Below, piece after piece: positions 7,801 through 52,310 of a stretch of 64,000 nt of DNA. Both the position numbers and the translations under genes were made by a program. Positions within the stretch are counted from its first letter, which is position 1. Each line of letters starts with the position of its first letter. Origin of the DNA: Pseudozyma flocculosa PF-1 (lineage: Eukaryota; Basidiomycota; Ustilaginomycetes; Ustilaginales; Ustilaginaceae); the NCBI RefSeq assembly GCF_000417875.1, contig NW_006920870.1, positions 870,727-934,726 on the forward strand. Direction: 5' to 3'. Below the pieces are notes generated by a model. The model saw nothing but the letters and a program-made list of their open reading frames with translations. It had not been told where the DNA came from and made no database searches.

Positions 7801-10007
7801 AATTGCAGTCCTTCAATCTCGAGAAAGGACGGGACCTCGCCCGCGTCCCAGCCTCGGCGGAACTGGCCAGCGCCGCCGGTCGGGGCTGTCGAGGGCCGTT
7901 TGAGGTTGGCTCTGGACCGCGATCGACCTTTTGAGCCCGAGGCCTGCGATTCGCCGAGCGCGGACGGGGTCTTTGCCCTGGCTTGCCCATCCGATGTCTC
8001 CGTCCCTTGGTCGCCGTCCGCCGTCTCCTCGGCGACACCGCTCTTGACCTGGGCGTCCTGCCTCAGCGATGCAAAAGTCGAGCCCTTCAGCTCCGATTGT
8101 GGTGCTGCCTGGGCCGTCGAGGGCCGCACCCGGCGCATCGGCCGCCCCGATGAACTCTGTGGCTGCTTGCCCTTGGACGCCGCCGCCCGTAGCCTCTCAG
8201 CCTTCATCTCCTCCATCCGAGCTTGCGCGGCCTCCTGCGCCTTGCGCATAAAGTCAGATCCGCTGGGCGTCCGAGTGTGCGCGATCCGCTGCACCTGCGG
8301 TATCGTGGGCGTCTGATCGGGATCCTCGGATGCCCCGGCGGGGCCGACTGTGTTCGCATCGGTCGCCGCCGGCAATGCCGGAGCGGGCATCGATCTGGGT
8401 GAGACGGGCGCTGCATCGGCTGTCGAAGGCCGGCTGCTGGGCAGGTCGAAGGCTGCGCCGATCGGAGACTTGACGGATGCTGACGCCGACGTCGAGGCAA
8501 AAGACACGACGCTCGCATTGTCGTCGCGAAACTGAAGCGGGACAGGTTTTCTGCGAATCCGGTAGGTGGAGCCGGAATCTCCGGAGGCAGCCGAGCTGGC
8601 GCTCCCTCGGCGCAGCGCAGAGTCGAGGCTGGCGGGGTGTTGGGAGTGGTCCAACGCGCCGTCCGAGTGGCTACTGCCGCGCCGGTCGTAAGAGCGGCGC
8701 GGCGGCACCGCAAGCAGCTCCGACTTGACGGAGGAAGGCGACAGTAGTCCATCGGCCCTGATGGGCTGCCGTGAGGCTGCAGAGACGTCGGCATTCCCCG
8801 CCGGAACCTCGTTGGCGGCGGCGGCGTTTGCCGGTTGCTGCGCCGTTCCGGCTTCGTTTGTATCGCCTGTCCCTCCGCTGAGGTCGGCTCCGCCGACGAC
8901 GCCTCCTCGGATCGCATCTGTTGGGCTCGATCCCGGACTCGTACTCGAACCCGGCCTCGCCGAAGCTTCACCCTCGCCCCTGTCCTCGGAAGTGGCGCAT
9001 TCTTGGTCCTTGCTTTGGAGGAGCTCCTCCTCGAGCTCTTCCTCGGGTGAAGGCAGCGAGTCCCTGGCGCTGCTGCTCCGACGCGTGCTGTCGCGAACGA
9101 TGTCGCCCTCGCTGAGCCGCTTAGCCTGCGCTAGACCGACTCCTGGCACCTCGAAGCTGGTATTGGTGAAGACGGGCAGCGTCTGGCTGTGCCTGCCATC
9201 GCCGAGGAAGCTGCTGTGCCTGCGCGAGGATGGGGCGCCGCTCGAGGGGCGCGAGACTGCCGAGAGGTAGGAATGCGACGAGTCGCTGAGCGCCTCTCCT
9301 CCGCCGCGCCGGATCCACGAGGCCCGCTTCGAAGCTGGCGCAGCTGCCGAGCCGATGGTGAGCTCGCGCAGACCGCCTGGACTGGCGCCCTCCCGACGAA
9401 GTCCGACGTCGAAGAAGGCCGGGGCCGATTCGGGCGTCTTGGGCGACGGGTACTGGTCGCTGTGGACGGGAGCGGTGCCCGGGCGTCTGCGACGTGTCCG
9501 CGGCGAGAGGCCTCCGCCGCTCAGAGGAGAGCCTGCCGCGCTCCAGGCGCTGAGGTGGCCCGTGTCGCTAAACATGCCACGCTTCTCCTGCAGCTTCTGC
9601 TCGAAGATGAGCTGGCTGCGTCGGTTGGGGATCGATGGCGGAGACCTAACAGCGGCCGCCGTGCGCCGGCTGATGCCCAGACCGACGGCTTCATTGTCGC
9701 TCATGCTCCTCGACATGTGGGGAGCGACGCCGTCGTCGTCGGCTGCGATCGCACCCATGGAAGGTGAAGCGGGCAGCCTGCGCAGGCTGAGGCCGGCCTC
9801 CATGGCGTCGTTGGGGACCACAATCTCCTCGGTGTCGATCGACTGGATGGACCAGCGCCGCGCCGCCGACGAGGTGCTCGAGCCGGATGCGAAGGGCAGC
9901 GCGTCTGCGGAGATGGGCGGCGAGGCGTCGAGCATGGGTGACCCGGAGAAGCTTGGCGAACGGAGGTAGGTGATGGTCATAGTCCTTGGCGAGGGATCCT
10001 CTGGCAC
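4853..10007 (-). CDS. giant AhpC/TSA-type (PRXL2-like) thioredoxin-fold protein with long disordered flanks
   Basis: Two exons, 10007..6974 and 6864..4853. The intron 6973..6865 has a GTGAGT donor and CGCCAG acceptor, and the join reads SPACARPDYAQLGMTKG in one frame of 1681 residues. A thioredoxin-fold domain of the AhpC/TSA antioxidant family (PF13911 type) sits at about residues 895-1075, with strand-helix features LVCFLRHWWCGFCQQFA (a CxxC motif near residue 937), a VVVGQGD strand and LYADPKRNIYRALGM. In this family the cysteines are thought to act in redox chemistry; the substrate is unknown. The intron falls inside the domain, which supports the join. The first ~890 and last ~600 residues are rich in Ser, Pro, Arg and acidic residues with no recognised domain, far longer than the ~200-residue typical member. 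A start at the next Met (MTITYLRSP, 9 residues downstream) is possible. The redox-fold call is firm, the role unknown. Confidence 0.8.
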
Positions 10008-13000
10008 TCGACGTAGCGAGGCTGTGCGCTGCAGTCCCGGTCTGGTACGGCCGACTGTCGCCGGCGCTGTCGTTCAAAGGGCGTACCAGAAGGGGGACAA
10101 GACTACTCTTGGTGCCCTTGCCAGCCGGGCCAGGCTGGAGTCGGTGGCGGTCCGGGTGCAGAGTCAGGATCGTGGCCGGTTGTGATGGTCGATGTGTCGA
10201 TGGTGCCGTGCGTCGATTGCTCTAGGAAGAGATCAAGGTCTGGTGAGCCGGGTCGGGTCGATTTCGTCTGCCGACAACGCAGGCATTCGGTGCGGTGGAC
10301 GACGGCGGGCGCAGTTGCTGGTGCTGATTTCGGTCGCTGCGAGGATCCAGAGAAAGAGAGAAGAGAGATAGGCAGGCTGATGTCTAAAGGGTCAAGGTGA
10401 TGTTCCGATGCGCGAGCGTCGTAGAGGTCCAATGAGGAGACCGGGGCAGTGCAGAGCAGGGAATCCGACGAAGGCGAGTGCCCGTTCCAAGCAGCGAGAA
10501 GCGGTGTCGGACGTGGCGCTCTGACCGTGGTGGATGACGGGGTCCGAGGTCCGAGGCTGGTGCGAGCCAGAGTAATGATCGCCAAGCAAGAGTAATGAGC
10601 AGATGGAGCGAGGGCCCGAGGTGGGTTGATGGATGGCAACGATGAAGGGCCGGACGTGTGACGGGGCTGGTGAGCGGGCAGGTGATGGTGGTCGAGGTGT
10701 AGGCGGCAAGGTGGCTGCTCGTCATCCTACGAGGTGCGGCAGCTGGTTGCTCGATGGCGCCCTGCCTCGCTCGCTCTCTTCGGTCTGGCTTTGCCCCGCA
10801 GCCTGGACATGTGCGAGAGGCGGTCGGAGTTGGGCCAGGACGGCAGCCAGGTAGGCAGAGAGCTCGAGCAGCTTCCCAGCCCGACCAAAACGCAAGCAAG
10901 GCGGGCGAACCCCCTGCTTGCCCACCTGCCACCGGTGTGAAATCCCTGAAAAATGAAATAGTCAATCGGCTGTCTTGCCTTTTGGCTGCAAACGCCCGTC
11001 CGACGCCGGCTGCTTGGCCTGGCCTGGCCTGCCCAGCCCGGCTGCCAGATCCATGGCGGGTCTCCCCTCTCTAGCCTCGCCAGCAGAGTCTCCGACGTTC
11101 AGCTTTCCATCTCCGCGGCCGCAACCTCGGCAGCGCCTGCACCAGCCAGCCAAGGCAGGCCGCCTAATCCATCGCACCGACCTGCTGGTGCTTGCTCGTG
11201 CCGTCTCGGGGTCATCCGCCGCCCAGGCGCAGCCGCTTTGTCCACTGCCCGTTCTCTTTGCAGGTCGACGAGGCGGCGTCTGCACCAGCGCGGACAATCA
11301 CGCGGGTATCGACGACGACGACGACGGCGGCGACGACGGCAGCGACGACGGCAGCGACGACGTGATGTCAAGAGAGGCACAGGCAGGCCAAGGTACCTAG
11401 AAAGGCGCCCCAACCGCTGGCTGCTTGCTTGGCATCTCGCGACCCGCACAGGCAGGCCAGGTCTAGGCGCCGGTGGTGCGCCGCCATCTGAGGCCGCTCT
11501 GTCTCGCCTCTTTGTCCGGAGCCTGTATGTCTTGCTTGCCTAGCCTAGCAGCCCTCCCGCCAGAGCCCAACGCGAGACGGATCACCCGCCGGGATCTGGA
11601 AGTCAAGTCCAAAGGCCCCGTCAGGAACGACTGCCGTCACCACCGCCGTACGGTCCTTGCTTCTGGCCTGCCAGGCCACAGGCGGCAAGGCCGGCCGACA
11701 CAGCTGCCGCCTCGTCGCTCGTCTTGTCACTTGGCACTCTGCTCAGATCACGTACGCTGAGACCGTCCGGGATGGATCTCGACTCCCGGCCTCACCATTC
11801 TTTAATGGCATTCTCCGCTCACTCCATCACGATACCTTCGTCGCTCGATGACTTGCGATGAGGGTTCCAAGGCAACCTGCCATGAGAGCCCGCCGGCCTG
11901 ACATTTCGCCGACAGACGATGGCCGGGTTTACCTCTTTTGGCGCTGGATCTTGACAACCGCGGCGCCTAGAGGGGAAGGACACAAGTACGCGCCTGGGAT
12001 GGCAGCAGCGACGTGCAGCTAGAAGGCAGACAGGAGCAGGTGCAGCTGCTCGCTGCTTGTCGATTGCAAGGCCGCACACTCGCGCGCGCCGTCAAAACCT
12101 ACCAAGCAAAGCCAGCTCTCCTCGCCGCCTCTTTCGGCAAGGAGGCGTGGGTTTTTCTTCGAAGGCGCGGCGTGGATCACACACGAAGCCTAGAAAAGAG
12201 AGGCCGGCGGGAGCACGCTGCTGAGCTCGACGTCCCTCTGGGCGCGCGCAGCGAGGAACGGCCTTCGAGGAGGCCCCCCTGCCTTGTGCCTGAAAAGCGC
12301 CCTAAGCGAGAAGAGCGCGCCTTTGTTCCAAAGCGAACGCCAGCAGACGCCGTCGGACCAGGTTGGGACCACCAGCGCACCGTACGGTGCCTAGCAGCGA
12401 GAAGCCGCTCGCCGTCTGCTCCGACCCCCTTGCACCTTGCTTGCTTGTCGCCGATCAGTTTTGGCCTAAGTTATCCTGCCTGCCTGCCTGCTCTTTCGTT
12501 AGATGTTACGGTCTCGTGCAAGCAGGCAGGTAGTAGCGGGGAGACAAGGAACGAGGATGTGCGGCCCCTTGCGCCGATCCGGGGCCCTCGACCTTTGGTC
12601 GTTGCCCTGGCAATAATAGCGGGCGCTCCAAGGTGCCCGCCGACAAGAACCGGGGCAACGGAACCGGCGTCGAATGCGGGGGCGACCAACACGTAAGCAT
12701 GCCGGCACATCCGGCGACGAGTCCTGGGAGGACGACGCCTCATCCTTCCGACCAGGCTTTGTTTGTGCACCTGCGCGTCTTTGTGCAGCCTTGAATGACC
12801 CTGACCGGTGGGACCGCGGTTGGACTAGTAGTGATACTCTCCAGTGGTACCGGCGAGTGAAAAGTGAGGCGTGGTCGACGTGGTCGGAGCGTAAGATCGA
12901 GTACAAACGGGCGGACGGTCGGGCGCAAGAGACGCGCGACGGGGCTCTTCTGTCGAGGTGCTGCCGGAGCTTGCCCGAAAGCGCAGGCTAGGCTGAGCTG

Positions 13001-28988: not shown

Positions 28989-31313
28989 CTAAGGAGGGGG
29001 GGTGGTGCCCGAGCTGCCGTCAGCCGGGGGCGTCGTGGTGTCAGCGGGAGGGGTGGTGGTGTCAGCCGGAGGAGTGGTGGTGTCGGCAGGAGGAGTGGTG
29101 GTGTCAGCCGGCGGCGTCGTGGTGTCAGCCGGAGGCGTCGTGGTGTCAGCGGGAGGGGTGGTGGTGTCAGCCGGAGGAGTGGTAGTGTCAGCCGGCGGCG
29201 TCGTGGTGTCAGCCGGTGGCGTCGTGGNNNNNNNNNNNNNNNNNNNNNNNNNNNNNNNNNNNNNNNNNNNNNNNNNNNNNNNNNNNNNNNNNNNNNNNNN
29301 NNNNNNNNNNNNNNNNNNNNNNNNNNNNNNNNNNNNNNNNNNNNNNNNNNNNNNNNNNNNNNNNNNNNNNNNNNNNNNNNNNNNNNNNNNNNNNNNNNNN
29401 NNNNNNNNNNNNNNNNNNNNNNNNNNNNNNNNNNNNNNNNNNNNNNNNNNNNNNNNNNNNNNNNNNNNNNNNNNNNNNNNNNNNNNNNNGTGTCAGCCGG
29501 AGGCGTCGTGGTGTCGGCAGGGGGAGTGGTAGTGTCGGCAGGAGGGGTGGTGGTGTCCGCCGGAGGCGTCGTGGTGTCCGCAGGAGGAGTGGTGGTGTCA
29601 GCCGGAGGGGTGGTGCTACCGCCATCAGCCGGGGGCGTCGTGGTGTCAGCCGGGGGCGTGGTGGTGTCAGCCGGAGGCGTCGTGGTGTCCGCAGGAGGCG
29701 TGGTGCTACCGCCATCAGCCGGGGGCGTCGTGGTGTCAGCCGGAGGCGTGGTGGTGTCGGCGGGGGCGTGGTGGTGTCCACAGGAGGCGTGGTGCTGCCG
29801 CCATCAGCCGGGGCGTCGTGGTGTCCGCAGGAGGCGTGGTGCTGCCGCCATCAGCCGGAGGCGTGGTGGTGTCAGCCGGGGGCGTCGTGGTATCGGCAGG
29901 AGGCGTGGTGCTGCCGCCATCAGCCGGAGGCGTGGTGGTGTCAGCCGGGGGCGTCGTGGTATCGGCAGGAGGCGTGGTGCTGCCGCCATCAGCCGGAGGC
30001 GTGGTGTCGGTCGGGGGCGCAGGCGAGCCGCCGTCAGCCGGAGGCGTCGTCGAACCACCGTCAGCGGGAGGGGTGGTCGAGCCGCCGTCGGCAGGCGGCG
30101 TCGTCGAGCCACCGTCAGCCGGAGGAGTCGTCGAGCCGCCGTCAGCCGGAGGAGTCGTCGAGCCACCGTCGGCAGGAGGCGTCGTCGAGCCGCCGTCGGC
30201 CGGAGGGGGGGTCGATCCACCATCAGCCGGAGGAGTCGTCGAGCCACCGTCGGCAGGAGGCGTCGTCGAGCCGCCGTCGGCCGGAGGGGGGGTCGATCCA
30301 CCATCAGTGGGCGGGTTAGGGGCAGCAGCGGTGACAGTCTTGGTCTCCGTGGCCGTGGCAGCCGTCTTGGTGACGGTAGCTGGGGCGTTGGTAACGGTGA
30401 CCTTGGGGCCGTCGACAGTCACAGTCTGGGTAGCCGTCGAGGTGGCCTGGACGGTGCGGTCCTCGGTGATGGTAACCGAGTTGGTTGCCGTGGCGGAGAC
30501 GGTCTCGGTGACGTTGACAGCGTCGCCGGTGACGGTCGCGGTGACGAAGGCCGTCCTGGTCTTGGTGCGAGTCCAAGGCGCAGTCTTGACCTTGGTCGAG
30601 GTGACGGTCTGGGTGATGGGGTGACCGTGGTAGCGCGTGATGGTCTTGGTCGTTGTCTTGGGCTTGTAATGGTCGACGCCGTAGACGATCTGGAGGCAGG
30701 CCTCCTGGGCGACATCGCGGTAGGCGCGCAGCCAGCGGGGGACGCTGGCGGCGCGACGGTCGAGCGGCTCGGGGGTAGGCTCGACGACGTTGCCCTGGCC
30801 GTCGACGGTGACGGTGACGGTGGCGGTGGGCGTGACAGTCTCGGTGACGTCGTCGCCGGCCACCGTGACGGTCTCGGCGGCGGAGGTCTCGGTGGCGGTG
30901 GCGGCCTCGGTGACGGTGGCCGTCACGTCGTGGTCCTCGGTCTGCGTGGCGAAGACGGTGGCCACGGTGGTCTCGAAGGTGCTCTTGTTGGTGGGGATGT
31001 CGGTGACGGTGGCGTTCCTGGTCTTGGTCTTGTAGTGGACGGGGGTCTTGGTCGAGGTGACCTTCTTGACCTTGGTGACAGTGGGGTGCACCGTCTTGTA
31101 CTTGAGCTTGGTCACGGTCTTCTGGTGCGGGTGGGCACCGTTGAGGTAGGCCGAGCACCAGGCCTTGGACGAGCCGGGGCGGGCGATGATGATGCGCTTG
31201 GCGGCGTTGATGCGAGCCTGCTGCTTGCTGGTCGTGGCGGCCTCGGCGACATCAACGGGGGCCGAGAAGGCCAGGAAGAGGCCGATGAGGAGGAGCTTGG
31301 GGCTGACCTGCAT
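28989..31313 (-). CDS. secreted mucin-like Thr/Pro repeat protein (gap and frame breaks inside)
   Basis: Reads leftwards from ATG at 31313. The N-terminus MQVSPKLLLIGLFLAFSAPV...AEA is a clear signal peptide, followed by a ~310-residue Thr/Val-rich region (TVTATVTEAATATETS, TKTRTAFVTATVTG and similar) with two short Cys-containing units (AWCSAYLNGAHPHQ, EACLQIVYGVDHY). From about residue 330 it becomes a repeat of PPADGGSTT (9 residues) and then PPADTTT (7 residues). The repeat is interrupted by an unresolved gap of 262 N at 29228-29489 and by two apparent one-base losses near 29757-29765 and 29810-29818. Beyond the gap the repeat frame closes at TAG 28989-28991 after ADGSSGTTPPP. Such heavily O-glycosylatable proteins are secreted or wall-associated; no GPI-anchor signal is seen. 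Exact function unknown. Confidence 0.7.
29000..30310 (-). repeat. 21/27-bp coding tandem repeat with assembly gap
   Basis: Degenerate direct repeats encoding PPADTTT (21 bp) on the left and PPADGGSTT (27 bp) on the right, in the mucin-like gene. Copies are too similar for reliable assembly, which explains the N run at 29228-29489. Confidence 0.9.
29228..29489. other. assembly gap (262 N)
   Basis: Run of undetermined bases inside the tandem repeat of the mucin-like gene; its true length is unknown. Confidence 0.99.
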
Positions 31314-36625: not shown

Positions 36626-37075
36626 GCCGGGGTAGAGAGAGACCTGCTGCGATCACCGCTGCGCCGTCTGGCAGTCGGTCAGGAGGAGAGAGGGCGGTAG
36701 GAGCTCGTGGATGGTGTCGTCGAGGGCCGGTGCGGCTGCTTGCGAGCTCCATTTCGTCGGATTTGTGTGGCCCTTTTCCCCGCTCCACCTCTCAGCTGGC
36801 CTTCGCTCGGATGCCGGAACCAGGAAGATGGAGGGGGACTTGCCTGCACCCTGCGCTGACTGACCGAGGGAACACCTTCCTTCAGATCCAGGCCGACGCC
36901 GCTCTCGGTCCTGCCGTCATCACCACACACCCATCCGAACCCTCGCATCTCTCTCGCCCCTCACCGGCACACAGTTTCCCTTGCGGCCATCGTGAGCCGC
37001 CTCGGGACGATCCGAGGAGGGCCTCACCTACAAAACCGCGCCTGAGCCTGGATCCGTCGGGACCGGGCCGATGCG
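36626..37075. other. divergent promoter region WRAP53-like / MIP1
   Basis: Only 450 nt separates the two start codons, so the genes probably share a promoter. No repeat, RNA or small gene is seen. Confidence 0.5.
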
Positions 37076-40000
37076 ATGCACAGGCGGCCAAAGCAACCCT
37101 TGCTGGCCGCAGTCAATTGTGCCACCGCTCGCTGGCTGCGGCCACGCCACCCGTTTGCATCCCTTGCCGCGCTCCACTCGACGATAGCAGGCGCCGCTCC
37201 CCATAATGGAAGCGCAGATCGACCGAACGACGCCGGGACGCGGCCGACGAGCTCGATTCACGCAGGGCTGCCGCGCGGCCCCGGACCTAGCTTTTCGCCG
37301 CTGTGCTCGTCGACACCTTCAGGTCTTGGTTCGGCCCACATCCGCAGCTCCTCTTTGAGAGATGAACCGTTTCCCCGCCTGAAAGCACGGCTGGCATCGA
37401 CGATGGCCGATGCGCCGACCGAGAGCGAGGCGGCCATCCCGCGCAACGCGGTGGGCGTTCAGCTGCTGCCCGTCAAGCTGCACGCGCAGCTGTTCCCAAA
37501 GACGTCGGACCCCGTTCCGCCCGTCGACAAGCTCGCGCTCAGTATCAGCAAGGACCACCTCAGTCAGCACGGTCTCAAGGCCAGCCAAGCCGCGACATTA
37601 CCGCAGACGTCGTTTGACCTGCCCGCTCTCCAGGGGCGGGACCTCGCTGAGCACTTCTGGACCATCGGCCGGGAAGTGGCTCAGCCCTGGCTCGGAATGG
37701 CGCACGAGCTCGCCTCTTTCCAGCTCGTCGAGCCCCCGGAAGAGATCGACGATGAAACGGCGCGCAACATCGACGACTTCCGCTTCGACCCGGCAGAGTG
37801 GATCAACCTCGACCCGTCTCTCCGCACGCCGGATCACCTCAAGCCCATCAGGTGGTCGCAGGCACCGGGATGGACGCGCTACCCAATCCTCCGCTCCGAA
37901 GACGGCACCGAATCGGTGCTGGGCGCCGGCGAGAGCGTACCCTACCCGGACCAGGAGGACGACGCGCTCGTCTTTGACGTAGAGACCATGGTCAGCGAAG
38001 GGCCCTACCCCGTCATGGCCACCGCCGCCGGAAAGCGGGCCTGGTACAGCTGGCTCAGCCCGTGGCTCGTCGGGGAAGGCCCGGGGAAGGATAGCAAACA
38101 CCATCTCATCCCTCTGGGCCCCAGCGGGCCCGATTCGCACCCGCGCCTGGTCGTCGGCCACAACGTCTCTTACGATCGCGCCAGGACGCTCGAAGAGTAC
38201 TCGCTCGACCTCGGCTCGACGCGGTGGCTGGACACCATGAGCCTCCACGTCGCCACTCGCGGCATCTCGTCACCGCAGCGGCCGGCCTGGATGCAGCACA
38301 ACAAGGCCAAGGCCGAGAAGCGAGCCAAGAAGCTGCTCCAGCAGAGCCAGCTGCGCGAAGAGACGCGCAGGGCCATCGAGAACGCCCTCTCCGGCATCGA
38401 CTACGATGCAGAGGAGCTCGAGGGCCTCAAGCTCGAGGCGCTGGACCAGGACAAGGAGGGCGATGTAGGTTCGGGCGCCTCTGCCGAGGGGCAGGGTGAC
38501 GCGGAAGGGCCAACCGAGGGTGAAGCGTCCCCCTTCGACCTCGATCTCGACGGCAGCGACGACGCCGCCGCAGCCAACGCCGCGTCCAAATCGACTTCTG
38601 CGTGGCTCGAGGAGACGTCGAAGAACTCGCTCGCCGACGTGGCCCGGCTGCACAAGGTCCAGCTCAAGGTGTCCAAGACGGCCCGCGACGCATTCGTGGA
38701 CGGCACGCCGCGAGAGGAAATCCTCGCCAAGGTGCAGCACCTGCTATCCTACTGCGCCTCGGACGTCCTGGCCACGCACCAGATCTTCTGCAAGGTCTGG
38801 ACCGACTTTGCCGAAAGGTGCCCGCATCCCGCCACCGTGGCCGGCGTCTTGCACCTCGGCAGCACCCTCCTCCCGGTCGACGACGAGTGGCTCGACTACA
38901 AGGCTCGATGCGAGCGACAGTTCAACGAGGTCAACAGCGCCGTCACAGAGTGCCTGCTGCAGCTCGCGGAAAAGCTCAAGGAGGAGGGGACTGCCGGCGT
39001 GTCGTGGTTGACTGCCGAGGCCATCGCCGCCGAAAAGCAGCCGTCAGCGGATGGGAAGCCAGGCTCTGGAGCAACGTCGCAGACAGCCCTCGACCGCCCG
39101 AGAGTGTGGTGGGAAGACGACCCGTGGTACTCGCAGCTGGACTGGACCCCAAAGAAGCCGAAAAAGGCCCGTCGCGCGCAGCCTGCGCAGGACGGTGAGG
39201 AGGTCGTCGCGGTGGCCAGCGCCTTCGAGGTGCCGGCATGGTACCGCGACGCCGTCGTGCGGAACAAGACCAAGAGCGGATTCGGGCCGAAGACGCTCGC
39301 GGCGCAGCAGCTGCTGCGCCTCCATCTGGATGGGGCGCCCCTGATCCGCGAGGGCAAAAGCTGGACGACGGTACCCGTCGCCGGCAAGGGCGCCATCGAA
39401 ATCACGGGCAACATTCTCGGCGCACCCTCGCTGAAGAAGCACGGCGCGGTCCTCGAGAGCCGGGCAGGTTCAGCCGGCGAGCGCGTGCTGGCGGCCATCA
39501 AGGGCGAGCTGGATCTCGACGACGACGAGGTCGCCGCCCTGCTGCGGGAGGTCGCCGAAGCGGCAAAGGCGCTGGACCTTCAGACCGCCGCCAAGGATGT
39601 GCAGCTGTCGCAGCTCGACTGGAGCCCCAAGGAGCTTCGACGCGACGAGTTGATGGCCACGACCGCTGCTGCCGCCGCTGCGTCACTGAGCCCATCGCCG
39701 GACGGTTCCGGTGCCGACGTCGTCGTCGCGGCGGAGCCAGAGTGGTGGCCCAAGTGGTTTTGGGACCTGGTCAAGAGCTCGACGGGCGAATTGGCGGTGA
39801 CGATCCGCTCGGCCGTCGCGCCGCTGCTGCTCAAGGTCTCGTGGCGAGGCTGCCCCCTGTTTCGCAGCCGTGAGCACGGCTGGACCTATCGCCTCAACGC
39901 GGACGAGATGCGCGGCTTCGTCACGCGCCAGAAGCCGTTGGCATTCAAGCTGATCGCCGACGAGCATCTGCAGGCGCAGATCGATGCCAACTCCCCGAGC

Positions 40001-43000
40001 CAGCCGTGGCCCAAGGGCCGGGGCGCACCCAAGACCCCCCCGTCGCTCGATTCGGGCATCCACTTCTTCAAGGTCCCGCACAGCGAGGGCGAGAGCGCCA
40101 ACGTGGGCAGCCCCTTTGCGAAGAACTTCATCCCCTACTTTGAGGACGGCACGCTGCAGAGCCAGCACCCGGACGAGATCGGGCAGCGGGCGGCCAGGAC
40201 GGCGCTGGATCTCAACGCGCAGTGCAGCTACTGGATCGCGGTGCGGGACCGCGTCGACAAGCAGATGGTAGTGTGGGACGGCGAGGCGGGCACGCGGATG
40301 GGCTACGGGCCGGGCGTCAGCGGGGCACGCAGCGAGAGGCCGGGCGAGGCGGAGCGTGCCAAGGGCCTGATCCTGCCGCAGGTCGTCAGCATGGGCACCG
40401 TTACGCGCCGCGCCACTGAAAACACCTGGCTGACCGCCTCCAACGCCAAGAAGAACCGGCTCGGCTCGGAGCTCAAGGCGATGGTCAAGGCGCCGCCCGG
40501 GTACAGCCTGGTCGGTGCCGACGTCGACAGCGAGGAGCTGTGGATCTGCAGCGTCATGGGCGACGCCCAGTTCGGCATCCACGGCGCCACAGCCATCGGC
40601 TGGATGACGCTCGAGGGCACCAAGGCCCACGGCACCGACCTGCACAGCAAGACGGCGAGCATCCTGGGCATCAGCCGCAACCAGGCCAAGGTGTTCAACT
40701 ACAGTCGCATCTACGGAGCCGGCATCAAGCACGCCACGCAGCTGTTGCTCAAGGCCAACCCGTCGATGGTCACCGACGAGGCGACCAAGCTGGCCAAGGA
40801 GCTCTACGCGGCGACCAAGGGCCAAAACACGCACACCGACGAGCTCTTCGACCGCAAGTTCTGGTTCGGCGGCACCGAGAGCTACGTCTTCAACAAACTC
40901 GAGAGCATCGCGCTGAGCGATCGGCCGCAGACGCCGGCGCTCGACTGCGGCGTCACCAACGCCCTCACCAAAAAGTACCTCGGCAAGGTCGACTTTGGCA
41001 ACGGGCGGCTGTCGGAGGAGTACATGCCGAGCCGCATCAACTGGGTCGTCCAGTCGAGCGGCGTCGACTACCTCCACCTCCTCATCACGTCGATGGAGTG
41101 GCTCTGCCGCCGCTACAGCATCGATGCGAGGTTCATGCTCAGCGTTCACGATGAGGTGCGCTACCTCGCCCGCGACCACGATCGCTACCGGGCCGCCATG
41201 GCGCTGCAGATCGCCAACCTCTGGACGCGCTCGATGTTTGCCTTTAAGCTGCAGATGGACGACCTGCCGCTGGGCTGCGCCTTTTTCACCGCCGTCGACG
41301 TCGACAAAGTGCTGAGGAAGGAGGCCGACGACCCCTGCGTCACGCCCAGCCATCCCGAACCGCTGCCGAGCGGCGAGGCGCTCGAGATCCAGCAAATCCT
41401 CGATGCCACCAACAACGGATCGCTCTACCTGGACGGCCGCACCATGGACAACCGCGTACCCGCCGTCGCATCCGTCGCCCTGGATGCCGTCGAGGGTCGT
41501 TCGCAGTTCCTGCAGCCCGACTTTCCGGCCTACGTCCCCTCGACGCAGATGCACCGGTCGACGGGTCAGCGCGGTCTCAACTATCTCCAGGCGCAGGCCT
41601 CCAAGGAGATTGCCGAGATCCGCGCGCTGGAGCAGAGGGCCAAGGTCTCGTCGTCCGCGGCGGCACCGGGGCCGAGCAAGCCGAGAGCAACCCGCCGCAC
41701 GACGGCCGCCAAGGGCACTTCGCGGCTGAGCGAGGACGATTGGGTGCAGAGCTGCGCCGATGAGGCCTCCGCGACTGCCGCTCGGCCGAGTAAGCCCCGC
41801 GCGAAACGGGCATCTGCAACGGCGTCAACCGCCAAGTCGAGCGGTAAGGCGGCCGCCGCGGTCGGTAACGGCCAGCGCCGGGGCTTCAGCACGCGGAGCG
41901 CTGGCCCTGGGTCGCCGAGCACCCTTGATCTGGACTCGCTCTTCCCGAATCGGCCCTCTCGCCCCAAGCTGCCATTCTATCGGACCTTCGAGCACCGTAG
42001 GCGGATCCTCTACGGCCTCTACCGGCCGCTTCTGCGCAGCTGTCCCAAGGGTCTCGACGCTCTGCGCGGCTGGGTTCGCTACAGCGTGCGGAAGAGAAAG
42101 TCGCTGACCTCGGCGCGCCTGGTCGATGAGCTCTTCGAGGAAGGGTGCCAGCTCGTCGAGACATTTCGGCAGGCGGGCCGAGGCGACGCCAAGGCCATGC
42201 GCGCGCTCAAGCAGAAGGATCTGCGCATCCGGCGGCGGCTGCATCGTCTTAGCTGGCGGAGCTTTTGGGCCAAGAAGCTGCACGAGCTCAGGTACCCTCG
42301 GCGGATCCCGCACCACTCGGGTGCGCTGCTGCCGCCGACGATCTCTAACCGACCGCTGCCGAGGTACAAGCCGGTGCAGCCCGTGGCGATCAGCATGATG
42401 ATCTTCAAGCGCCGCCTGGCACGGCTGCGGCGCGCGGAAAAGCTGGCCGAGGTCGACGAGCTGCAGGCCGCACAGCACGGCGACGCTGCGATGCTCCGCG
42501 ACGTCCTCGACAGCGAGCAGCTCTCGTCGTGGACCGGCTTTCGTGAGTGGCGTCGGCACCTCGTGGCCCCTCCCCGCGCGGCCCTTGAGGGCTCTGGCAT
42601 GCTAACCTCCGGCGCTTCCATCCCTCTGTCCAAGCACGCCCTCGTCAGACGAGACGCTGTCGGAGCAGCGCGAGGAGCTGCGCAGATCGTTTGCGCTCGA
42701 CCACGCGCGAGCGCAGATGGTGTTTGACCGCAAGACGCTCGTGATGGCGAAACGGGCGCGTATCGCCAAAAAGAGGTGAGTAGTGTTGCCCGTGGCCGCA
42801 TACGACGCGGGTTCGCCAACGGTTGCTGATGCCGCGTGCCGCTGTCCTGGATCGCGCGCAGAGCACACCTTCGAGCCAAGCACCAAGCTGTCCAGCGCAA
42901 GCGTGCGAGCGAGGAGAGCCAACTGCCGACGAGCAAGAAGCGCCAGCTCCGACCGCGCCCCACACTCACTTCTTTGTCGTCGTGGGAGCGGCTGGCCGAG

Positions 43001-43006
43001 CTGTAG
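37076..43006 (+). CDS. MIP1: mitochondrial DNA polymerase gamma fused to a C-terminal LYR-motif domain
   Basis: Three exons, 37076..42542, 42649..42775, 42862..43006; joining keeps one frame of 1912 residues. The start is a basic presequence (MHRRPKQPLLAAVNCATARW). The polymerase part has exonuclease motifs I (VFDVET, ~res 299), II (VGHNVSYDR, ~359) and III (YCASDVLATHQ, ~559), and polymerase motifs A (GADVDSEELW, ~1148), B (RNQAKVFNYSRIYGAG, ~1200) and C (SVHDEVRYL, ~1358): a family-A, proofreading replicase of mitochondrial DNA. After about residue 1480 comes a low-complexity basic linker with QRRGFSTRS (~1600), then PKLPFYRTFEHRRRILYGLY + RPLLRSC, an LYR-motif helix (~1645) and a Lys/Arg-rich helical tail ending LSSWERLAEL. 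The LYR part resembles fungal LYR proteins of the Cup1-like type. It has no in-frame Met between ~41549 and ~42196, so it cannot start on its own in this frame. The simple frame ends at 42727, but canonical introns (GTGAGT) extend a coherent protein to 43006. Confidence 0.85.
41790..41920 (+). other. presequence-like linker inside the polymerase-LYR fusion
   Basis: Encodes about 45-50 residues with many Arg/Lys/Ser/Ala and no Asp or Glu, ending in GQRRGFSTRSAGPG. This composition is typical of matrix-targeting presequences, and RRGFST resembles sites cut by the mitochondrial processing peptidase. Cleavage is inference. Confidence 0.5.
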
Positions 43007-44177
43007 CGGGATGGGGTGCCGTCGAGGCAAGAACGACGCCGCCACCGTGGGGCGCGGCGGCGGATGATGTCAGGAACGAGCAAATCTATAATTAGAAGCA
43101 GTTCCGTTGCCACGGAGGGTGTCGCCGTTGATGCCGACTACTGGTCATCCATGCGAGATCCGCCCGCGAAGCTGCAGCGCAGCGCAGCGTTTCTGAGCGC
43201 AGCGGCACGCAAGAAGAATCCGGCGAGGAGAGGCCGAACGGACCGAACCCGAACGCAAAGAGATGGGGTGGCAGTGCTCGCTTCGACCCGGCTGGATAGG
43301 GCCGGGCTCGGCCGCTTGTTCTCGACTGCGTACGGCAGTACCGCCCGCACAGAGGGATCCGACGCACGGCGGTTTGTTTCGAGAAACTTCTTAGAGATCT
43401 TGCGAGGTGCAAGCGCAGCACGGCCTTGCCTACTGGCTGGGCTTGAAAGGCAGCAGGCAGCCATGGTCGGGTTGCCGGCGCGGTACTGTAGCCGTCCGTT
43501 CAAGCGGCGGCGGTTGCACCGACGACGTAGGCATAGGCGGTGAAGCGAGCGAGGCGGAGGCGAAGCGAGGATGGGAGATGTGCGAGGCGCATAAGGTGCC
43601 TTGGCGGCCGCAGCACCGACCGTTCCTTCGTTCGTACCGTGCGCCGCCCCGCTCCGTCCGCCCGCCTGCCTACAGTAGCTGTTCGTCGTTCGGCGTGTTT
43701 GATCGACGTAGGGCGCCCATCTCAGACACAGCCTTGGCCGGTCCCAGCGGCGTGCGTACGCATGAGGGAGGCGTCGCTCAAGATGAGAGGCAGAGCACGA
43801 AGTAGTCGCACGACGGAGGGTCGCCCTTTCTTGAGCAGCCAGGGGGCCCTCACTCGACGCCGATCAGGACGCCTCGAGACTGCAGCGGTTTGATCGTCAC
43901 CTCTCCGCCCTCGCCGCCGCCGCCACCATCCCCGCCACCATGCATCGCTTCCGCTCCCACCGGGCCGAATCGCGATGCGATGCCGGTACGGTGCGGTGGC
44001 GATGGCGATGGGCTCGCGGTGCAACGCAAAGGCAGGCCCACCCGGCCGGCGTTTGAAGTCGCAGCGGTCCAGCCTTCTTTCTCGGATGAGATGGCGTCAT
44101 TTTGCAGGGTCGAGCTTTGGCCTGGCCTGGCCCGTGGATTCCGTTTTCAGCAGCGGCGGCACCGACGCTGGTTGACG

Positions 44178-44786: not shown

Positions 44787-46109
44787 ATGGCTGACCTCCA
44801 GCGAAGCGGATCGGTGCTCGTCACCGAGATCAAGGCCGACCACGCCGCCCAGCCCTCGAACGGCTCTGCCATCAACGGACATGCCGTGCCCGGAACCGCG
44901 ACCGATGGCGGTGCTGCCCCCGCCGCGCCCCTCGACCCGAGCCTGACCAGCCCGCCCGCTCACTCGGCGCAGGCGTCTCAGGCCAGCGCCATGCCCTCGG
45001 TCCTGCCGCAGGCTGTTCCCGGCCACGTTGCCGACGCCTCGCAGGCCTCGGCCACCGGCAGCGTCGCGCCGCAGCCCCAGGTGCAGCCCATCCAGNNNNN
45101 NNNNNNNNNNNNNNNNNNNNNNNNNNNNNNNNNNNNNNNNNNNNNNNNNNNNNNNNNNNNNNNNNNNNNNNNNNNNNNNNNNNNNNNNNNNNNNNNNNNN
45201 NNNNNNNNNNNNNNNNNNNNNNNNNNNNNNNNNNNNNNNNNNNNNNNNNNNNNNNNNNNNNNNNNNNNNNNNNNNNNNNNNNNNNNNNNNNNNNNNNNNN
45301 NNNNNNNNNNNNNNNNNNNNNNNNNNNNNNNNNNNNNNNNNNNNNNNNNNNNNNNNNNNNNNNNNNNNNNNNNNNNNNNNNNNNNNNNNNNNNNNNNNNN
45401 NNNNNNNNNNNNNNNNNNNNNNNNNNNNNNNNNNNNNNNNNNNNNNNNNNNNNNNNNNNNNNNNNNNNNNNNNNNNNNNNNNNNNNNNNNNNNNNNNNNN
45501 NNNNNNNGACCCGCTCCGACGCGCCCACTCAGGACGGCGTTGCTCCGGCCGCCGCTGCCGGCGCTGCCGGTGGTGCGACTGCAGCTGCTGCCGCCCCCGC
45601 CGCCGCCGCTCCCGCTCAGCAGCCTGCGGCCGCTCAGCCCACCACCGAGGCCGCCGCGACTTCCGCCCACCGCCGTCCCGGCCCAGGCTGCGATGTCGTC
45701 CAAGGAGATCAAGAAGTACGACAAGCTGATGAAGACCGAGGCCAAGAGCGAGGAAAAGGCGCTCAAGAAGGCGCTCAAGGACGCGTCGACGTCCGAGAAG
45801 CTGCTGCGCAACGCGCGCGACGAAGAGGCCGAGGCGCTCAAGAAGCAGGAAAAGGCGACGACCAAGGAGCACAAGGCCGCAAAGGTGCTCGCCAAGGCGC
45901 AGGCCGAGTACGAAAAGTACGCCTCGGACCTCGAAAAGGCCAAGCAGAAGACGGAACTCAAGAAGAAGCACCACCAGGACATGATCCAGAGCTACGAGAC
46001 GACAAAGGCCCACATCGAGGAGCTGCGCAGCCGCAAGCTGGCAAACGACCAGGACCGCGCCAAGCGCGCCGCCTCGATCCACGGCACCGTCACCTCGATC
46101 CGCAAATAG
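44787..46109 (+). CDS. coiled-coil protein, Ncp1-like (contains assembly gap and frame break)
   Basis: Begins MADLQRSGSVLVTEIKADHA at 44787 and ends at 46109. The N-terminal ~100 residues are Ala/Ser/Gln/Pro-rich; 412 N (45096-45507) hide the middle; the C-terminal ~140 residues (MSSKEIKKYDKLMKTEAKSE...) form a long Lys/Glu/Ala-rich coiled coil with heptad character ending in TVTSIRK. This layout resembles basidiomycete proteins labelled 'DNA-binding protein Ncp1', whose role is poorly defined. Right after the gap the Ala/Gln/Pro-rich frame (QDGVAPAAAAGAAGG..., frame of 45509) is not the frame of the coiled coil; a one-base error near 45650-45680 is the likely cause. A TATA box and a long CT-rich leader suggest strong expression. 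The family name is tentative; the coiled-coil nature is clear. Confidence 0.6.
   Translation: MADLQRSGSVLVTEIKADHAAQPSNGSAINGHAVPGTATDGGAAPAAPLDPSLTSPPAHSAQASQASAMPSVLPQAVPGHVADASQASATGSVAPQPQVQPIQXXXXXXXXXXXXXXXXXXXXXXXXXXXXXXXXXXXXXXXXXXXXXXXXXXXXXXXXXXXXXXXXXXXXXXXXXXXXXXXXXXXXXXXXXXXXXXXXXXXXXXXXXXXXXXXXXXXXXXXXXXXXXXXXXXXXXXXXXXPAPTRPLRTALLRPPLPALPVVRLQLLPPPPPPLPLSSLRPLSPPPRPPRLPPTAVPAQAAMSSKEIKKYDKLMKTEAKSEEKALKKALKDASTSEKLLRNARDEEAEALKKQEKATTKEHKAAKVLAKAQAEYEKYASDLEKAKQKTELKKKHHQDMIQSYETTKAHIEELRSRKLANDQDRAKRAASIHGTVTSIRK
45096..45507. other. assembly gap (412 N)
   Basis: Run of undetermined bases inside the Ala/Gln/Pro-rich part of the Ncp1-like gene, probably a collapsed repeat. Confidence 0.99.
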
Positions 46110-48024: not shown

Positions 48025-51000
48025 CTACCTCATGGCGCCCCGCTCATCCTCGCCCTCGCTCTCGCTGCCGCTCTCGTCGTCCTCGCTGCCGCTGCCGCTG
48101 CTCGCCTCGTCGCTGTCGTCGTCCTTGCCGAGATCGAGCTCGACACGCTCCATGTCGTAGCCGACCCGCTTCAGCTGCGCCTCAATCTCGTCGACCTTGG
48201 ACGGCGGCGCCACGACGGCGGCAATCGAGCGGGCCGGGTCAAAGATGGGCAGGATGTAGGTCTGTAGCGACTGCTGTACCTGCTCGATCGTGACGGCCTG
48301 TATGGTTCGGGTTTGCGGGTCAGAGGGGATTGGGAGGGGGGAGGGCAAGTCAGTCGGGGATGCACACTGGGTTTCGGGGGGGCGACGCTGCGCCGCAAGC
48401 ACGCGCACTCACGCTCATGTCGCTGAGCAGCTTCCTGCCGCGGTTCTTGCCGCTCATCTTGACGACGCTGTCGACAAAGCTCTCGGTGGCCGCCTGCCCG
48501 ACGGTGCCCTCGCTGTCGGCGACGCTAAAGTGGAGCGAGCTCTTGGCGCTCTCGAGGGTGGTCTCGTCGATCTTCATGCTGCCCTCGGCCAGCGCCTCGA
48601 TGACCTTTTTCGCCTCGAGGAACGCCTTGGCCGAGTCGGGCGAGCGGTACAGGCTGAAATGGATCAGCTGCGACTCGGGGTCGGAGCGGATCGACGCGCC
48701 ATAGGCCAGTCCGGCGCCGCGGATAAATCGCCACAGGAACGACTCCATGGCGTTGAGCACGGCGATGGTCACCACCAGCGCCGGGTTGTCGGCGTGCAGG
48801 TAGTGCGAGATGCCCTTGGCGGAGAAGACCGAGTACGACGACTCGATCGAGGGCAGCGCCGTGATGAGGCCGCGCTTCTTGGGGTCCCTGCCCAGCTCGC
48901 TCAGCACGTCTTTGGCCCACGGGATCGGGGTCGGCGCCGCCGTCTGCCACTCGGGCCGCACAAAGTGTTTGGTCCAGGCGCTCCTCGGCTCGTCGAGGTC
49001 CAGCACGTTGCCCGCCACCGAGATGCGCAGGTTCTCGGGCCGCATAATGGTCCTGCGGATCGTCTCAAAGTCGTCGACGACCTTGTCTGGCGTGGCGTTG
49101 AGCGCCTCGGCCAGCTTGGGCATGGCGCTAATCAGGGTCAGAAGCGAGTTGTTGAGCAGCGTCGACCGCTTCGGGTCGTGCTGCAGGCTGCGCGCCAGGC
49201 CCCACGAGATGGTGCGGCCGTCGCGCTTCTGCTCTGGCAGGCTCTGGACGATCTTGCTCGTGCCCACCTTGAGACGGTCGACGGCGAATTGGCTTCCCCA
49301 GATCAGGTCGCGGTACCAGGCGATGGCCTTTTCGTAGTTGGCCTTCTCCACCTTGATCTCGGCGCAGACGAGCTCCTGGAAGCCCGTGCCGACGCCGAGC
49401 GCAACGCTGTACTCGAGCGTGTCCTCGTCGAGGCCCTTGACGACCTCCTCGTAGGTCATCGAGCGCTGGCTGCCGTCCTGGCAGGTGACGGGCAGCGAGA
49501 ACATGACCGAGAGGTAGAGGTGGAGATGGGAGCGCAGCTCGGCGGGCACGTCGCTGGTAGACACGAGCACGCTGATGGTGACAAAGCTCGAGTCGACGTG
49601 GTCGAACTGCACAAAAAAGGGCAGCGTCTCGCCGTCGGCATCGACGTGCGCCTGCACCTTGCGATCGAGGTCGGCCGCCATCACGGCGGCCTTTGACGCC
49701 TCCTGGTCCTTGGCCACCGGCTCGTTGCGCGCCGAGCCGACAGGGATCCACTGGATGCTGTCGACGCTGGGGATCTTGAAGCTCTTGAGCAGCTCGTCGG
49801 GGATCTCGCGGTCGTTTTCCTTCTTGGCGGCCTCGAGCTTGTCGGCCAGCTTCTTGAGGCCGTCTTCGCCCAGCTCCGTGCGTCGCTTCTCCTCGAGCGC
49901 CTTGGTGTCGGCTTTGAGCTTGTCCACCAGCGGCGCCGAGGGGCGGCCGACGACGACGAGGCGCGGGTTGTCGACGAAGTACTTGCGCAGCACCTCGACC
50001 CATTGCTGCGACGTCCAGCCGGCCAGGGTGTCGTAGCGCGTCATGTCGTCGTTGGCGGCGTGGAGATCCTTGCCATCCTTGGAGCCGTAGAGGAAGTCCA
50101 TGATGATGAGGTCCGAGAAGCCGTCGGCGGGCTTGGTCTCGAGGCTGCTGAGGAGCTTGAGACTGTCGCGCTTGATGATCATCCTCATCCGGTCCATGTC
50201 GATGCCCTCGTCGGCCACCTTGGCGAGCAGCGCGACGACCTTGTCGTCGACCTCGTCGAGGTGCTCGGACGGGACCGAAGAGAAGTAGGCGTACAGGGTG
50301 TCGGCGCCCGCCTTTTCGGTGCTGCTGATGTAGACGTCGGTGAAGAGCGGATCGTCGCGCTCGACAAACTCCTTCTGGATGGCGCTGACCGGCGAGTCGG
50401 AGAGGTAGGTACCGAGAAGCTGGACGGCCTCCTTTTCGAGCCAGTCGTTGTACTTGGGTCCCATCCAGGTGACCTCGACCTCTCCGACGCTCTCGTCGTG
50501 CTCGGGAAAGTCGATGAACGCCCTGCGCCGCTTGGAGTCCGGCTGCGACCCCTTGGCCGGCGGGTCGGCGGGGTCGACGCCCGGCTGTTCGAGCTTGGAG
50601 CCGTCAATCTTGGGCACTGCGGCGCTCGGCGTCTCGACAAAGGGTCGCTTCCAGCCGCGGGGGCCGGCGACGCCGTGGGCCTCGCCGTGCTGCTTGAGGC
50701 GCTCCTCGACGCTGTTGAGCGTCTCCAGCAGCTTCTCCCTCTCGAGCGGACCGCAGACGACGAGCGCGGCGTTGTGGGGCGCGTAGTACTTGCCGTGGTA
50801 CTTGCGAATGTCGTCGATGGTCAGCACGCGCAGCGCCGACATGAGGCCGCCGGTCTCGCTGCGGTAGGCCGACGACTTTGAGTAGAGCATCCTCTGGGTC
50901 TTGAGCTCCATCAGGTCTCCGCTCGAGTTTTCGCGGCCCTGCATCTCGGAGAAGACGACGCCGGCATCCTCGCCCTGGCCGTTGATGTGATAGACCTCGG

Positions 51001-51496
51001 TGGTGAAGCCTGCGTCGGTGAGGGTGGGGAAAAAGGCGTGGTCGAGGTAGACGGGGAGCATGCGGAGGAAGCCGTCGGAGCCGGCGGTGGTGAGGGTGTA
51101 GGCGGTGTGGTCGTTGGCGGTCCAGGCGTTGGTGCCGCTGGCGAATGCGCGGTTGGCCAGCGTGTCGAGGACGCCCTTGTAGGGGTACTGCTCCGATCCG
51201 AGGAAGATGAGGTGCTCGAGGGTGTGGGGTACACCCGTGTCCTCAAAGATTTCGGTGGCAAAGGTCATGTAGCAGTTGAGGAGGGGCGACTGGAAGCTGG
51301 CCCAGGCCACCGTGAGGCCGGTGACCCTCGACTGCCACTTCTCTACGAACATGCCGGGTGCATAGTCGAGGTCGACGCGGGCGATGAGGTCAAAGTTGCC
51401 CAGGCTCGCCGGGGGTTCCTGGTCCTTGGAGAAAGGCAGGGTGGCGGCTGCTGCTGCGCCAGGCTTGCCGGTGGTGTAGCGGGCTGGGAGTGCCAT
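48025..51496 (-). CDS. M16 family zinc metalloprotease (Sdd3/YOL098C-like)
   Basis: Two exons on minus: 51496..48413 and 48297..48025, intron 115 nt with GTGAGT donor; 1118 residues. The inverted zinc-binding motif HTLEHLIFLGS (HxxEH, about residue 90) and the surrounding SPLLNCYMTFATEIFEDTGV and NAWTANDHTAYTLTTAG segments are those of the M16C group that includes yeast Sdd3/YOL098C and fission yeast SPAC3H1.02c; length fits these (~1040). They are pitrilysin-like peptidases with two halves enclosing a chamber; substrates are unclear. The C-terminus is an acidic Ser/Asp/Glu tail. In the same frame a further Met at 51745 would add 83 residues starting MPLASAFRLSTSACRSPAAT, which looks like a mitochondrial presequence, so cytosolic and mitochondrial forms are possible. 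I chose 51496 because it matches the usual family start (MALPARYTTGK). Confidence 0.85.
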
Positions 51497-52310
51497 GGTT
51501 GCCAGACCTTGTCTATGGGGAGGGAGAGGGTGGCTGGAGTGCTGCTTCTGAGCAGACGAGGCGGAGGTGGCTGCGGCTAGGGTGGGGGGCTTCCTGGCGC
51601 TGAGCGAGAGCGGGCGAGCGGCAGCGACTCCGACGGGGGAAGATCGAGCGCAGTGGAAGAGGAGTGCGCCTGACGAGCGCAGCAGCGTAGCAGCGGGAGA
51701 GCGACAGGCGGAAGTGCTGAGTCGGAAAGCGGAGGCCAACGGCATGGACGGGCGAAGAGAAGAGGCGGGGGGCTCCCTTTGGTCTCCCTCAAAAAAGGCG
51801 CAGCCGGAGAGTCTCCGAAGAATGTCGCCAGCGAGGAGGTCGTGTCGGTCTGAAACAGAGGGCCTCAGCAATATAGTATAATGGCCAGTTCAGGGCAACG
51901 GAGGGGTGGGATGGGCGGTGGGTTGGTGGTAGGTCGGGTCGGGCCGATGCCGTAGGATGGAGCAGGGCGGCCAACGTCCTCGGCTGATCGTGCGTACGTG
52001 GCGGCGCTTGCGCTTCTGCCGAAAAAGAAGCCGGCGCCTTCGGAAGTCGGAAGCCAGCCGGGCAAAAAAAGGGCATCGGCCGCTCCGGACCAGGCCGGCG
52101 TGGAGGCCGAATGGGTTTGCTCCGCGCCACCGGCCGGAGAAGGCGAAGGCGTGCTCGCCGCTGCCTGCTTTGTCAAACCGACCCTGGCCTCGGCACCACC
52201 TTCTCTCGCGACAACCAGCATCGCTCTCGTCCTTCAGTACTATCATCCGGCCTCTTGATCGTCAACGCACACACACATCTCACCCTCTCTTGTCGATTGG
52301 ACCCGCCGCC
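51497..52310. other. divergent region M16 protease / COX17
   Basis: About 810 nt; the left 250 nt may code the longer N-terminus of the M16 protease. An AT-rich island (AATATAGTATAATGG, about 51869-51884) stands out in the GC-rich background and may be a core promoter. No other gene is seen. Confidence 0.4.

Follow-up and report, generated by a model that had tools for sequence, protein, structure and literature searches.

We found that one open frame in the window, i.e., the whole 64,000-nucleotide stretch of DNA analyzed here, joins DNA polymerase gamma to a small basic protein composed of an LYR domain and a tail domain. It is probable that this gene encodes a tandem precursor, which would be imported as one chain and cut in the mitochondrial matrix into two proteins. 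The in-frame run-on from the polymerase into the LYR part, noticed in a preliminary description of this DNA, is real: the plus-strand open frame at 37046-42727 is uninterrupted, polymerase gamma coding starts at ATG 37076, and the resulting 1883-amino-acid frame stays open through the linker into the LYR domain and tail. In-frame ATGs within 41300-42400 lie at 41444, 41549, 42197, 42395, and 42398, in agreement with the earlier observation that none exists from 41549 to 42196. Placing the gene end at 43006 requires two predicted introns, and their removal gives a spliced fused product of 1912 amino acids. The features of the gene are as follows.

37076..42542, plus strand: exon 1, covering polymerase gamma through the LYR domain, linker included, and the greater part of the tail domain (open frame, translation)
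37841..38809, plus strand: 3'-5' exonuclease domain PF18136 (Pfam, residues 256-578)
40373..41197, plus strand: family A polymerase domain PF00476; motif C (HDEVRY) is close to the domain end (Pfam, residues 1100-1374; yeast Mip1 alignment)
41573..41596, plus strand: last piece (GLNYLQAQ) of the conserved C-terminal extension of the polymerase (alignment of relatives)
41597..41938, plus strand: linker of 114 residues, with low model confidence around the motif (alignment, structure model)
41765..41926, plus strand: presequence-like stretch without acidic residues, rich in R, K, S, and A (translation)
41876..41893, plus strand: RRGFST, in which RGFST exactly matches the published MPP/Icp55 site (motif position)
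41987..42178, plus strand: three LYR-type helices, with the L-Y-R codons at 42017-42025 (structure model, profile)
42317..42433, plus strand: tail-domain core SGALLPP..RYKPVQP..MMIxxRRxARxRR (invariant alignment columns)
42543..42648, plus strand: predicted intron 1, GTGAGT..GCTAAC..CAG, GT-AG (sequence reading)
42649..42775, plus strand: exon 2 (conceptual splicing)
42776..42861, plus strand: predicted intron 2, GTGAGT..CAG, GT-AG (sequence reading)
42862..43006, plus strand: exon 3, with stop codon TAG (conceptual splicing)

Just downstream, a plus-strand frame at 43007-43543 contains the presequence-like GLGRLFSTAYGSTAR; it is seemingly intergenic and possibly a product of chance. Elsewhere in the window, a minus-strand open frame of 1048 amino acids (6930-10073) matches AhpC/TSA families in its last ~120 residues, and runs of N occupy 29228-29489 and 45096-45507.

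The polymerase gamma identity proposed earlier is borne out by the occurrence of both PF18136 (E 8.4e-85) and PF00476 (E 5e-13) in the fused chain in a Pfam scan, and by its best solved relatives, yeast Mip1 (9c51; E 2.6e-218) and human POLG chains (E about 1e-195). By sequence, the enzyme is thus a member of the Mip1/POLG family. Its own C-terminal extension contains …HRSTGQRGLNYLQAQASKEIAEIRALE… and is followed by the linker, then by RRRILYGLYRPLLRSC, and then by the basic tail. In the genome (23.0 Mb, 33 contigs), the polymerase piece and the LYR part each gave a single match, and the PF05347 cut-off was exceeded at three further places.

We searched for homologues with residues 1250-1660 (covering the linker plus the beginning of the LYR domain); 7985 candidates were scored and 1642 proteins found, the best 120 of which were numbered P0004-P0123, P0004 being the window's own protein. 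An LYR/tail profile matched 69 of the 71 top-ranked relatives (P0005-P0075) among these best 120 of 1642, and one of the 48 in P0076-P0123, namely P0082. Within P0005-P0075, 29 of the 30 proteins read as bearing Ustilaginomycotina names matched; P0019, from Moesziomyces antarcticus T-34, is among the fused proteins. The two missed proteins, P0021 (Ustilago loliicola) and P0067, both break off within the linker, and six profile matches stop at profile positions 68-71, as if the open frame had entered an intron. Fused proteins are favored in this ranking because the query includes the linker and LYR start; nevertheless, the unfused-looking P0021 and P0067 stand within the first 71 ranks. In a tree built from the 120 polymerase cores, a split of support 1.0 set 47 proteins apart from the 71 with a profile match plus P0021 and P0067, both counted with the fused group by assignment.

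Carriers with checked taxonomy span three classes of Ustilaginomycotina, a subphylum of five: Ustilaginomycetes (Thecaphora frezii and Violaceomyces), Exobasidiomycetes (Tilletia horrida and Meira), and Malasseziomycetes (Malassezia nana). Neither Moniliellomycetes nor Peribolosporomycetes was represented by name among the best 120 of 1642 homologues, and the closest named relative among them was T. frezii (71% over the scored region). Thus, the joining of the two units in a single frame is conserved between species, and orthologues checked for a joined chain as opposed to two genes with a stop codon between them again support the fusion reported in the preliminary description.

This conservation carries more weight than the window itself. 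The chance of an open 107-codon linker in a single genome, computed for this genome, is ~0.16, so that one genome proves little and the occurrence of this fusion in relatives is the stronger argument. It is this chance, together with the ends of P0021 and P0067 in the linker and the fact that the relatives are known from protein sequences alone, that would speak for two ordinary genes run together, either through a frame open by accident or in gene calling; however, the fused relatives (69/71) were drawn from several source collections, and such an artefact seems to us highly improbable.

A 14-row LYR profile search added P0124 and P0125 (Rhizoctonia solani, Agaricomycotina, 470 amino acids). 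P0125 matched from profile column 69 on over 178 columns (hhalign probability 98.1), with LYR helices 1 and 2 unmatched; hence, the match covers the tail in a protein without a polymerase, and its model likewise is without LYR helices 1 and 2. This sequence suggests a separate tail gene outside Ustilaginomycotina. Since P0125 has the tail without the polymerase, the fusion is probably the derived state, on the thin evidence of one outgroup protein.

As for the LYR domain claimed in the preliminary description, the assignment held by way of relatives, profile, and model, although the window's own sequence had no match to the LYR Pfam model at E up to 10; NCBIfam likewise gave zero matches for the window's own LYR part. 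PF05347 matched 11 of 14 aligned relatives at E up to 10 (best 1.2e-07), was precomputed for 5 of the best 120 of 1642 homologues, and exceeded its cut-off in 3 of 5 scanned relatives, these three having been picked for carrying a precomputed match. A first Foldseek search of the model, against PDB and viral models, had nothing below E 0.001, and a second look at the model after this null result gave LYR rows. The model shows a three-helix LYR fold with L-Y-R in helix 1, and the family profile and the model (pLDDT 93) group the part with ISD11 (LYRM4) and its kin (NDUFA6, NDUFB9, and AltMIEF1), to which, as judged by sequence and model, it belongs. The LYR part alone as a protein query returned three short unnamed pieces and nothing else. 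Within the C-terminal part, conservation was highest in the core of the tail domain, which follows the LYR helices and had no Pfam match. If released, the LYR-tail part would have a computed mass of 36.6 kDa and a pI of 11.5.

We then come to the linker, in which an internal presequence-like stretch with an MPP/Icp55-type motif lies between the two units. The published site, as given in a passage of a review, is RX(F/Y/I/L)|(S/A)(S/T) (PMC8847149), and the window matches it exactly. In many relatives the linker before the LYR domain ends in a similar form (RGFST, RSFST, KAGFCT, RGLHTSA, or RAYSTS type). For counting, we used 67 linkers of 43 to 183 residues, i.e., that of the window and those of 66 of the 71 relatives P0005-P0075; P0021, P0046, P0051, P0066, and P0067 were left out (C-terminal parts of at most 300 residues). 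The pattern [FYLM][SCHA]T occurred in 55/67 linkers (1000 shuffles that preserved composition gave 13.6 on average and never more than 25), and in 48/59 of a thinned set with C-terminal parts less than 75% identical (shuffled mean 11.7, maximum 23). This pattern was chosen after viewing the alignment, whereas the published Icp55, Oct1, and "no-R" patterns were fixed independently, and the counts are not independent because the linkers share ancestry. The T in 60/66 of the motif logo is inflated, since picks were scored for the motif itself; the shuffles are the tests that count.

The strict published Icp55 site was found in 16/67 linkers (shuffled mean 5.0, maximum 14); in the window's 1883-amino-acid frame it occurs twice, with one copy in the linker. 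An R two residues ahead of [FYLM][SAHC][ST] was present in only 24/67 linkers. The weak "no-R" motif [FY][SA] was barely enriched (47/67 linkers; shuffled mean 35.9, maximum 46), and in the thinned set it reached 40/59 against a shuffled maximum of 41. An Oct1-type motif was also considered as a general linker motif and rejected, the published form occurring in 14/67 linkers, below the shuffled mean of 17.5. Elsewhere in these proteins, [FYLM][SCHA]T occurred at a rate of 0.17 in linker-length windows. It was found in only 20/67 of the N-terminal 120-residue stretches of the same polymerases, and this control thus fails to show the motif as a general import mark here. Control presequences could not be taken from other genes of the genome, as the frames around the matches had no recognizable N-terminal exons.

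A looser version of the motif was matched in 56 of 59 thinned linkers, and residue composition was determined around its last match there. Acidic residues made up 4.2% and basic residues 18.3% of the 30 positions preceding this match, compared with 15.0% and 18.2% farther upstream and 11.5% and 8.2% after the motif. In a model of 41147-42541 (465 residues), pLDDT fell under 50 at residues 213-253, and the motif (residues 244-249) sits between the helical extension and the LYR domain; the stretch is probably disordered, and the overall pLDDT of 70 reflects that the polymerase part of the model is a fragment. At the polymerase-LYR joint, a repeat search and a bacterial-type promoter scan (not made for fungi) found nothing, and codon-position G+C gave no clear separation of linker from intron.

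We infer that the cleavage-type motif in the linkers of most relatives, a feature absent from the preliminary description, argues for two mature proteins and against one coupled protein; the functional coupling of replication to Fe-S or acyl-carrier roles proposed there is putative. A chain that stays whole, with the LYR part as a permanent polymerase domain tethering the enzyme to ACP, the mitoribosome, or other nucleoid partners, would account for a linkage maintained across relatives of three classes, and yeast Mip1 likewise requires its C-terminal extension, according to part of a published study (PMC3303844). Yet the motif and the acid-poor stretch recur in linkers that are otherwise highly variable (43 to 183 residues), and yeast Mip1 is not among the 29 matches of the LYR-part profile at E up to 10. 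We consider a permanently whole chain unlikely.

The same motif might serve an LYR protein that is made also, or only, from its own mRNA started inside the polymerase gene. Two features in the window would be needed.

41760..41789, plus strand: putative private exon opening the LYR part in this alternative, MRPPRLPLGR, in another frame (sequence reading)
41790..41875, plus strand: 86-nucleotide intron in this alternative, GTAAGC..CCAG, joining the private exon to RRGFST (sequence reading)

Translation from ATG 41760 through ten codons and this splice would give MRPPRLPLGR-RRGFSTRS in the LYR frame, a plausible, mitochondrial-looking presequence; it is the sole ATG/GT-AG/phase combination found in 41555-41935, and it would explain the motif equally well. 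Against this, at least one like candidate arose in 111 of 1000 codon-order shuffles, and the T. frezii protein aligns, weakly, across the supposed intron. In favor of the tandem precursor, Met is absent between the polymerase end and the motif in 16/67 linkers, the window included. Besides, an mRNA of its own needs no common frame, and yet 69/71 relatives are joined (best 120 of 1642); if the LYR protein came from a private start only, there would be no explanation for the joined chains in dozens of relatives. We regard this explanation as still less probable than a whole chain; a private start may, judging by the sequence, give an additional transcript. The motif could also be a relic, or could serve such a separately started LYR protein.

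Returning to the tandem precursor, the steps may be pictured as follows. One gene would give a chain of polymerase gamma followed by the small basic LYR-plus-tail protein, which the N-terminal presequence would carry into the matrix. There, a second, internal presequence in the disordered linker would be exposed, MPP would cleave after the residue following the arginine (RG|FST), and Icp55 would remove F; the products would be a linker-tailed polymerase and an independent LYR protein, the two possibly in equal number. Genes of the M16 family, to which MPP belongs, were found in the genome. One of these relatives of MPP and insulinase lies within the window, ~5 kb beyond the point where the fused gene stops: a minus-strand open frame of 1179 amino acids (48353-51889) that includes PF05193 and PF00675, both M16 peptidase domains. 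This neighborhood is probably due to chance.

Eight proteins (P0048, P0058, P0060, P0061, P0065, P0072, P0075, and P0082) have the tail and lack the three LYR helices in their protein sequences; P0061 is from M. nana, and the other seven resemble it. Six of the eight keep a cut-site-type motif, P0060 and P0061 having degenerate forms only. Other Malassezia proteins (P0064, P0069, and P0070) retain the helices. Part of the helices is missing in P0052 (a partial record) and P0062, probably by gene-model effects because the Tilletia horrida record P0028 has them. P0064 (Malassezia vespertilionis, 2122 amino acids) carries an extra PF04193 domain, which we take to be a PQ-loop repeat, either through another fusion or because gene models were merged. 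Helix loss with the tail kept, if it is no gene-model effect, would place the tail under the strongest selection, above the LYR helices. On the wider proposal, that this is a polyprotein across Ustilaginomycotina, split by MPP and Icp55 at a conserved internal presequence into 1:1 products, with the basic tail as the selected cargo since a Malassezia-like lineage dropped the LYR helices and kept cut site and tail, we are evenly divided.

If the tandem precursor is true, the dose of the replicase would be tied to that of the LYR-tail protein, which would hint at a link of the latter to mitochondrial DNA replication. The mitochondrial DNA polymerase is single-copy in the genome, and the group of carriers includes smuts and Malassezia yeasts. 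Database gamma polymerases of about 1700 to 2000 amino acids may thus be two proteins. The fused proteins are already public under names such as "DNA polymerase gamma," and the novelty therefore lies in recognizing the tandem and its candidate cut site; in searches of an open-licence library, no listed title or shown abstract opening described a polymerase-LYR fusion.

Known mitochondrial tandem precursors are few, six being named in a review passage (PMC8847149), and a disordered linker with an inner presequence is a trait of such precursors, from which we infer cleavage here by MPP and then Icp55. In parts of the reports on Rsm22-Cox11 of Schizosaccharomyces pombe, a tandem protein is cut after import (PMC12375894, PMC4381221). 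As in that protein, two unrelated mitochondrial proteins share one chain here, with the cleavage predicted; the partners differ, and the first one here is the replicative DNA polymerase. In Arg5,6 of Saccharomyces cerevisiae, as the same review passage describes, MPP takes off the N-terminal presequence and cuts inside to give two enzymes (PMC8847149); the layout with an internal cut, predicted in our case, is similar, and the partners again differ. Fungal polymerase gamma extends past the motifs of the animal enzyme, as in the yeast Mip1 C-terminal extension (PMC3303844, in part), and the alignment with Mip1 ends at query residue 1509, the start of the linker. LYR proteins are described in sections of a review as adaptors and assembly factors of respiratory complexes, four of these LYR proteins binding acyl carrier protein (PMC4381221), and Cup1, an essential LYR protein of fission yeast, is stated in part of another report to be required for respiration (PMC12811382). 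By profile and model, the LYR helices here are like those of ISD11/LYRM4, NDUFA6, NDUFB9, and AltMIEF1; those chains of 69 to 154 residues are separate proteins, whereas the LYR part described here is extended by a conserved basic tail domain and follows a polymerase in its chain. LYR domains predicted to be fused to other proteins fill the nine rows of Table 2 of Angerer 2015, and, although the present fusion is alike in kind, in none of these nine rows is the partner a DNA polymerase (PMC4381221).
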